A stretch of 29,611 nt of DNA from a virus. Shown piece by piece: positions 18,916-19,351 of this stretch (the stretch's first letter is position 1; each line of letters begins with the position of its first letter). Below the pieces are notes generated by a model. It ran no database searches. It had not been told where the DNA came from and saw only the letters and a list, made by a program, of their open reading frames with translations. The position numbers and the translations under genes are program-made. Location of the stretch: positions 1 to 29,611 of IMG/VR virus record IMGVR_UViG_3300027759_000310; one strand, written 5' to 3'.

Positions 18916-19197
18916 TGCCCCGAGCCGGAATCGAACCGGCAAGCCTTGTGAGCGGGAGATTTTCTTACCACTATAACTTTCGCTACCGTTTCCGTTTGTG
19001 GTCTGGACTTTATCTTCACCTTCAACTTACGTTGATTAGGTGGGTGCCGTCAAGTCTCTACACGTTCCCTTTCGGGCTTCGCTCGGGGTTGCCATGTTAA
19101 AGGGTTCTCCGAGTTTGACACCATTCACACTAGATATTTCTATCTAGGTGCTCAAATTGTCTAAGTCTCCAGTGTTTACCGATTTCACCATCGGGGC
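18916..19197 (-). tRNA. tRNA-Leu(UAA) interrupted by a group I intron
   Basis: Exons 19197-19163 and 18963-18916 join to an 83-nt tRNA with acceptor GCCCCGA/TCGGGGC, anticodon stem GGAGA/TCTCC and loop CTTAAAA. The gap falls after U34 of the anticodon, the same place as the classic cyanobacterial tRNA-Leu(UAA) intron. Confidence 0.9.
18964..19162 (-). other. Group I intron (199 nt) in tRNA-Leu
   Basis: The 5' exon ends in CUU, which pairs with GAG inside the intron with a U-G pair at the splice site (P1). The intron ends in G. An R-like element (plus 19047-19063) and an S-like element AAGATAAAGTCC (19005-19016) are in the right order, and the 3' end has GGTAGCGAAAG, as in tRNA-Leu introns. 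No ORF inside. Self-splicing is inferred. Confidence 0.88.
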
Positions 19198-19214: not shown

Positions 19215-19243
19215 AATATAACCTATCAAACATTATCTGTCAA
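19215..19243 (-). promoter_or_regulatory. Promoter for the distal tRNA cluster
   Basis: TTGACA (19243-19238), 17 bp, TATATT (19220-19215). Its -35 box ends 1 nt from the tRNA-like element upstream, and it drives the split tRNA-Leu. Confidence 0.85.
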
Positions 19244-19244
19244 G

Positions 19245-19335
19245 TGGACGAGGCCGGATTCGAACCGGCTTCCTAAACACGGGGCTACCGTGTGGTGACT
19301 CCCACAGAAACGTCTTTCTGCACGTTACCTCGCCC
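19245..19335 (-). tRNA. tRNA-like element, no usable anticodon
   Basis: 91 nt with a good acceptor (GGGCGAG with CTCGTCC), T-arm (GCCGG, TTCGAAT, CCGGC) and A73. The centre folds into CAGAAA/TTTCTG and ACACGG/CCGTGT, and no 7-nt anticodon loop with U33 can be made. A degenerate tRNA or a processing guide. Confidence 0.5.
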
Positions 19336-19351
19336 AATTAATTTTGTCAAG

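Follow-up and report, generated by a model that had tools for sequence, protein, structure and literature searches.

The ancient intron of cyanobacterial and plastid trnL(UAA) shares its host tRNA, its insertion site and its fold with an intron in the viral DNA analysed here, a 29,611-base IMG/VR record (IMGVR_UViG_3300027759_000310; hereafter the window). In the trees the two nevertheless came out apart, and P9 and the 3' end differ (AGAGAATG against GTGGTAAG). The gammaproteobacterial tRNA-Leu(UAA) introns, which lie in a tRNA-Gly, tRNA-Cys, tRNA-Leu cluster, share tRNA, site and helices with the window intron, the best at about 75% over the gene. Those introns lie in bacterial genomes, whereas the window intron resides in a phage tRNA array between phage-type exons. 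Azoarcus-type IC3 introns of betaproteobacterial tRNA-Ile(CAU) have the same compact core, in another host tRNA and in a separate clade. A 28-nt core stretch, GTGTAGAGACTTGACGGCACCCACCTAA, matches exactly between the window and two Azoarcus-type phage introns of 189–190 nt in viral CAU-anticodon tRNAs (L363 and L364). The tRNA-fMet introns of cyanobacteria, some of which encode an endonuclease, have a related core and supply the top cyanobacterial matches to the window, but they occupy a different tRNA and several are ~650 nt long. According to a 2014 review, every phage intron known by then was in a protein-coding gene (PMC3984707), in contrast to the tRNA location described here. In a marine podovirus, two group I introns were also seen at the capsid gene (L007, 1448–1628 and 2157–2337).

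The default tRNA search returned 23 tRNA genes from the window, with tRNA-Leu(UAA) missing from the list. Once introns were allowed, ARAGORN called a tRNA-Leu(taa) gene in which 199 nt of intron follow gene position 35, which is U34; once joined, the exons take the standard tRNA-Leu(taa) fold. The call falls exactly where the first-pass annotation, made from the letters alone, had placed a tRNA-Leu(UAA) split after U34 by 199 nt (18916–19197, minus strand). The elements of the locus are as follows.

19163–19197, minus strand: tRNA-Leu(UAA) exon 1, 35 nt, ending in U34 (ARAGORN; layout as in the empty allele of related phages).
18964–19162, minus strand: group I intron, 199 nt, starting AGAC and ending GGTAAG (RF00028, ARAGORN, covariation, absence from 12 relatives).
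18916–18963, minus strand: tRNA-Leu(UAA) exon 2, 48 nt up to the discriminator base, with no encoded CCA (ARAGORN).
19151–19153, minus strand: P1 guide GAG, pairing with exon 1 CUU (19163–19165), with U·G at the 5' splice site (paired in 65 of 65 introns).
19126–19150, minus strand: P2 hairpin with a GAAA loop (two-sided changes at 10 of 10 pairs over 65 introns; present in the MFE fold).
19117–19122, minus strand: P3 5' strand GGUGUC, partner GGCACC at 19043–19048 (all 65 paired; covariation at 4 of the 6 pairs, with as many as 5 pair types).
19108–19113, minus strand: P4 5' strand, partner at 19082–19087 (its last pair is a mismatched A·C in the window; the sister intron of the related record G003 has G-C there).
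19063–19081, minus strand: P6 and P6a hairpin (pair 83–99 is C-G, U-A or G-C in 65 of 65).
19052–19056, minus strand: P7 5' strand GACUU, the expected guanosine-binding helix, partner AAGUC at 19006–19010 (covariation).
19017–19042, minus strand: P8 hairpin (3 of the 4 basal pairs show covariation; pairing in 99.2% of cells).
18967–19002, minus strand: P9 with P9a and a GAAA-capped P9b (fold, covariation, and a compensatory change from T178-A189 in the window to C178-G189 in the sister).
18964, minus strand: terminal G (omega G), from the sequence.
19215–19243, minus strand: sigma-70-like promoter upstream of the gene, TTGACA, 17-nt spacer, TATATT (11 of 12 consensus matches).

Sequence analysis confirmed that this minus-strand tRNA-Leu(UAA) gene is interrupted by a 199-nt group I intron. 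The group I identity proposed at first pass held: RF00028, Rfam's general group I model and the covariance model applied here, matched with 55.8 bits, above the gathering score of 50 (E 8.8e-12, whole window). The match spans 18983–19173, covering the bulk of the intron plus the last bases of exon 1, and Rfam reported no second group I intron in the 29,611-base record. From the DNA alone the intron border may move by one base, because intron and exon 2 each start with A. It was fixed at U34/A35 by the terminal-G and U·G rules for group I introns, and the existence of empty-site alleles in related phages supports the borders independently. This site is that of the cyanobacterial and plastid tRNA-Leu intron, in agreement with the first reading. 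The terminal G and P1 reported there were also recovered: the intron ends in G, and the final U of exon 1 is paired with G in P1, giving a U·G pair at the 5' splice site in all 65 aligned introns. No homing endonuclease ORF and no long ORF was found within the 199 nt, again as originally described. By homology the intron is of the compact bacterial tRNA type, IC3. It can be aligned over its full length with the tRNA-Leu introns of cyanobacteria and proteobacteria and fits one alignment and tree with the tRNA-Ile(CAU) introns; the class name IC3 for bacterial tRNA introns is that of Ikawa 2000, as cited in PMC3984707.

The fold was evaluated on an alignment of 65 non-redundant tRNA-Leu(UAA) introns with splice sites, from phages and bacteria. 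A P1 to P9 scheme of 53 pairs was drawn from the window sequence and then counted over the 65 rows; outer P8 stem pairs, put out of register by differences in length, were excluded when covariation was counted. Paired cells amounted to 96.0%, compared to 77.7% in shuffles, and two-sided changes were present in 38 of the 53 pairs. The covariation score was 0.524 (shuffle mean 0.171, no shuffle as high; slid controls ≤0.107) for a scheme taken from one alignment row, and kin sequences may beat shuffles; so large a gap, together with the pseudoknot, makes such an artefact unlikely. P7, which crosses P3, has A-U, U-A, C-G or G-C as its last pair in 62 of 65 introns. When the window intron was folded alone, most helices of the scheme were recovered (z −3.9, with 0 of 200 shuffles as stable). 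The P1–P9 fold predicted for the window intron is thereby shown by covariation, including the P3–P8 core on which the first-pass annotation had made the group I assignment depend (P3, P7 and P8 all covary over the 65 introns).

The same tRNA-Leu gene exists with and without the intron in related virus records. DNA searches found its exons adjacent in G005 and G002 and the intron in place in G003. Relatives obtained via a neighbouring protein gave few syntenic arrays; the DNA search of the same records revealed the empty sites. An exon-1 scan of IMG/VR gave 13 related contigs, 12 of them intron-free and one (G003) with the intron; several of the 12 are near-copies, and the gain-versus-loss argument is one of contig counting. 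The window and G003 introns are 92% identical, with 16 differences. Two of these constitute the compensatory change in P9b, and three more fall in helices with a standard pair kept. Another affects A55 of P4 (A55·C76), mismatched in the window and paired in G003; one breaks the P8 tip pair in G003, and nine are unpaired. The window exons share 93% identity with L354's empty allele and 92% with the intron-bearing sister, the empty alleles as a group lying at 89–93%. Gene order in G003 (Leu, Lys, Ile, Gly) is that of the empty alleles L350, L351 and L358. In the empty alleles L359 and L360, ~120 nt extra lie between tRNA-Leu and tRNA-Lys. G002 and G003 (L346 and L347) are 99.8% identical over 10.3 kb and split abruptly within the tRNA array at the tRNA-Gln gene, consistent with either array exchange by recombination or chimeric assembly of the contig. 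Across the intron, the two exons and tRNA-Lys, G003 follows the window without a break at 91%, and so the intron-bearing gene itself is no artefact.

We consider it very probable that a compact bacterial-tRNA-type group I intron was gained between U34 and A35 by the phage's own tRNA-Leu(UAA), from a donor that was probably non-cyanobacterial. Entry into the phage's own gene is favoured because the window exons side with the empty phage alleles. The folded intron is predicted to bind a guanosine in P7, and splicing would cut after U34 and ligate U34 to A35, yielding a normal tRNA-Leu with anticodon UAA. The tRNA-Leu gene of this phage lineage would have acquired the intron horizontally, most likely recently, at the same site and from another tRNA-Leu(UAA) gene. 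That gene probably belonged to a proteobacterium or a different phage and not to a cyanobacterium, though the placement is weakly resolved. Spread probably occurred either by homing with an endonuclease encoded elsewhere or by plain recombination between tRNA arrays, since the window copy has no endonuclease while some of its relatives in other phages do. The first-pass annotation had left the origin between an independent gain and a cyanobacterial or plastid-like source; independent gain by the phage lineage fits the 12 empty-site contigs and the phage-type exons, and the second option is disfavoured by the separate cyanobacterial clade.

The comparison for origin used clean tRNA-Leu(UAA) introns, 58 of them viral and 53 bacterial, mostly found by core pattern. 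In a tree with added gammaproteobacterial sequences, 49 viral introns and one intron from a Bacteroidota bin formed a clade (99/98). As phage tRNA arrays also appear to recombine, the window intron could be a member of this large clade, inherited by phage-to-phage transfer within it. The window and G003 introns, however, were placed outside the clade, on their own, and a single clade of all viral Leu introns was rejected (p 0.029). Such inheritance is therefore rather unlikely, while a phage donor from outside the large viral clade is possible. In an earlier tree the window had grouped with the gammaproteobacterial L159 intron and one virus (99/87), and this shift between trees reveals the weakness of its placement. 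Among 369 Gammaproteobacteria genomes, 16 matched the window intron at E ≤1e-8, nearly all in tRNA-Leu(UAA) and mostly beside tRNA-Gly and tRNA-Cys; the best match reached 75% over the whole gene (E 7e-47). Introns of Pelagibacter-type phages gave core matches in blastn but are located outside tRNAs, and were discarded.

That the window intron descends, via a cyanobacterial host, from the ancient tRNA-Leu(UAA) intron of cyanobacteria or plastids appears improbable. The insertion site is identical, but U34/A35 is no cyanobacterial marker, because many other phyla have tRNA-Leu(UAA) introns there; bacterial carriers include Alpha-, Beta- and Gammaproteobacteria, Bacteroidota, Acidobacteriota and Cyanobacteriota, among others. 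An AU test with the window constrained to the cyanobacterial clade gave p 0.22–0.26, which accommodates such descent, although the constrained tree was 19–23 log units worse and the cyanobacterial Leu introns formed one well supported clade, with the window outside, in three trees. A cyanobacterial host is possible: two long proteins of G001, a record overlapping the window with 100% identity over 9.6 kb, have Microcystis phage Mel-JY01 as best or second-best match (41–42%). Against this, every inspected match of the window intron in 292 cyanobacterial genomes was inside tRNA-fMet, and the whole window gene had no match at E 0.001 in the L186 genome, which carries a Leu intron. The window exons are 60–66% identical to cyanobacterial tRNA-Leu. 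With the nearest bacterial matches gammaproteobacterial and the shared site uninformative, the source suggested at first pass was not supported, and a cyanobacterial donor of the window intron is judged unlikely from these comparisons.

Acquisition of a whole intron-bearing host tRNA-Leu gene, instead of intron entry into the phage's own, is disfavoured and highly improbable on exon identity: the exons are 89–93% like the empty phage alleles and less like every intron-bearing bacterial gene compared. Intron-bearing tRNA-Leu is known from bacteria of several phyla, in keeping with such a capture, and the tRNA-Lys downstream in the window and its sister is unlike that of two empty alleles, indicating that whole segments have been exchanged. 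Equally hard to credit is a non-splicing relic or assembly error, for which the A55·C76 mismatch in P4 could speak, given that G003 has the same gene and intron at 92% identity with mainly structure-keeping changes and that the catalytic core is intact in the predicted structure.

The virus is probably a contractile-tailed phage, as suggested by PHROG/Pfam matches of the window proteins, including a tail or head Ig-domain protein, and by a baseplate wedge protein encoded in G001. Among named phages, Microcystis phage Mel-JY01 and the 484-kb LR756508 give the closest matches (36–42%). The tRNA array is transcribed from the minus strand, and on that strand three sigma-70-like sites with TTGACA and a 17-nt spacer (20735–20707, 20442–20414 and 19243–19215) each lie ahead of a tRNA block; promoter-like sites overall occur at the shuffled rate, not above chance. 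A site similar to 19215–19243 precedes the gene in L350, L351, L353, L355, L356 and L358–L360. Next to it, 19244–19336 on the minus strand is a tRNA-like element with an 8-bp acceptor stem, a T arm and a long variable-type hairpin. It has a 7-bp hairpin with a 4-nt loop at the D position and no normal anticodon loop. Its fold gave z −3.1, with no ARAGORN call and a weak tmRNA-end match in Rfam.

At least 58 viral tRNA-Leu(UAA) introns were found, including those of a 735-kb phage and the cultured Agrobacterium phage Atu_ph07; the named carriers are LR756501 (735-kb), LR756511 (595-kb) and Atu_ph07. Clean tRNA-Leu(UAA) introns were present in at least 54 of at least 119 IMG/VR stretches with the core pattern, which is not a prevalence figure, the scan pattern being derived from the window intron. 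Three or more tRNAs accompany the intron in at least 34 of these carrier stretches. At least 8 have at most one, and so a few may be misassigned chromosomal contigs. ARAGORN also called introns in other phage tRNAs (Arg, Thr, Ser and others), a shifted border making the isotype unreliable for some non-Leu cases. Five viral Leu introns of 688–700 nt at the same site, three of them near-copies, contain an ORF with HNH residues, and all three such ORFs tested matched Pfam HNH. Rfam reported none of the introns of L002–L005 at E 0.01, so absence from Rfam carries no evidential weight. In Microcoleus phage My-WqHQDG, tRNA-Arg has an annotated length of 286 nt and an ARAGORN intron of 213 nt; the annotated length implies an intron, and at least one annotation pipeline has therefore reported such a gene. 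In Atu_ph07 the intron-bearing tRNA-Leu(UAA) lies at 2745–3106 of L003; the record annotates no tRNA there, and a short hypothetical protein that it does annotate, AUZ94936.1, overlaps the 3' portion of the gene.

In the open-access literature, a search for later descriptions of phage tRNAs with a group I intron came up empty, which is weak evidence of absence as preprints and most subscription journals lie outside that search. The authors of tRNAscan-SE state that the tool was not designed for group I intron detection (PMC8450103), and the paper on the 735-kb phage has no mention of introns in its main text (PMC7162821). Together with the unannotated Atu_ph07 copy, this indicates that phage tRNA introns are easily overlooked. 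It is a long shot that phages hold a tRNA-intron pool of their own, in which the unspliced intron would hide the anticodon loop from host anticodon nucleases and so delay or protect the tRNA supply. The window intron, its empty-site relatives and the wider viral set show that group I introns also reside in phage tRNA genes. Phage tRNA genes may thus be a vehicle carrying tRNA introns between bacterial lineages, and matched intron-bearing and empty alleles make it possible to test its gain and any cost or benefit.
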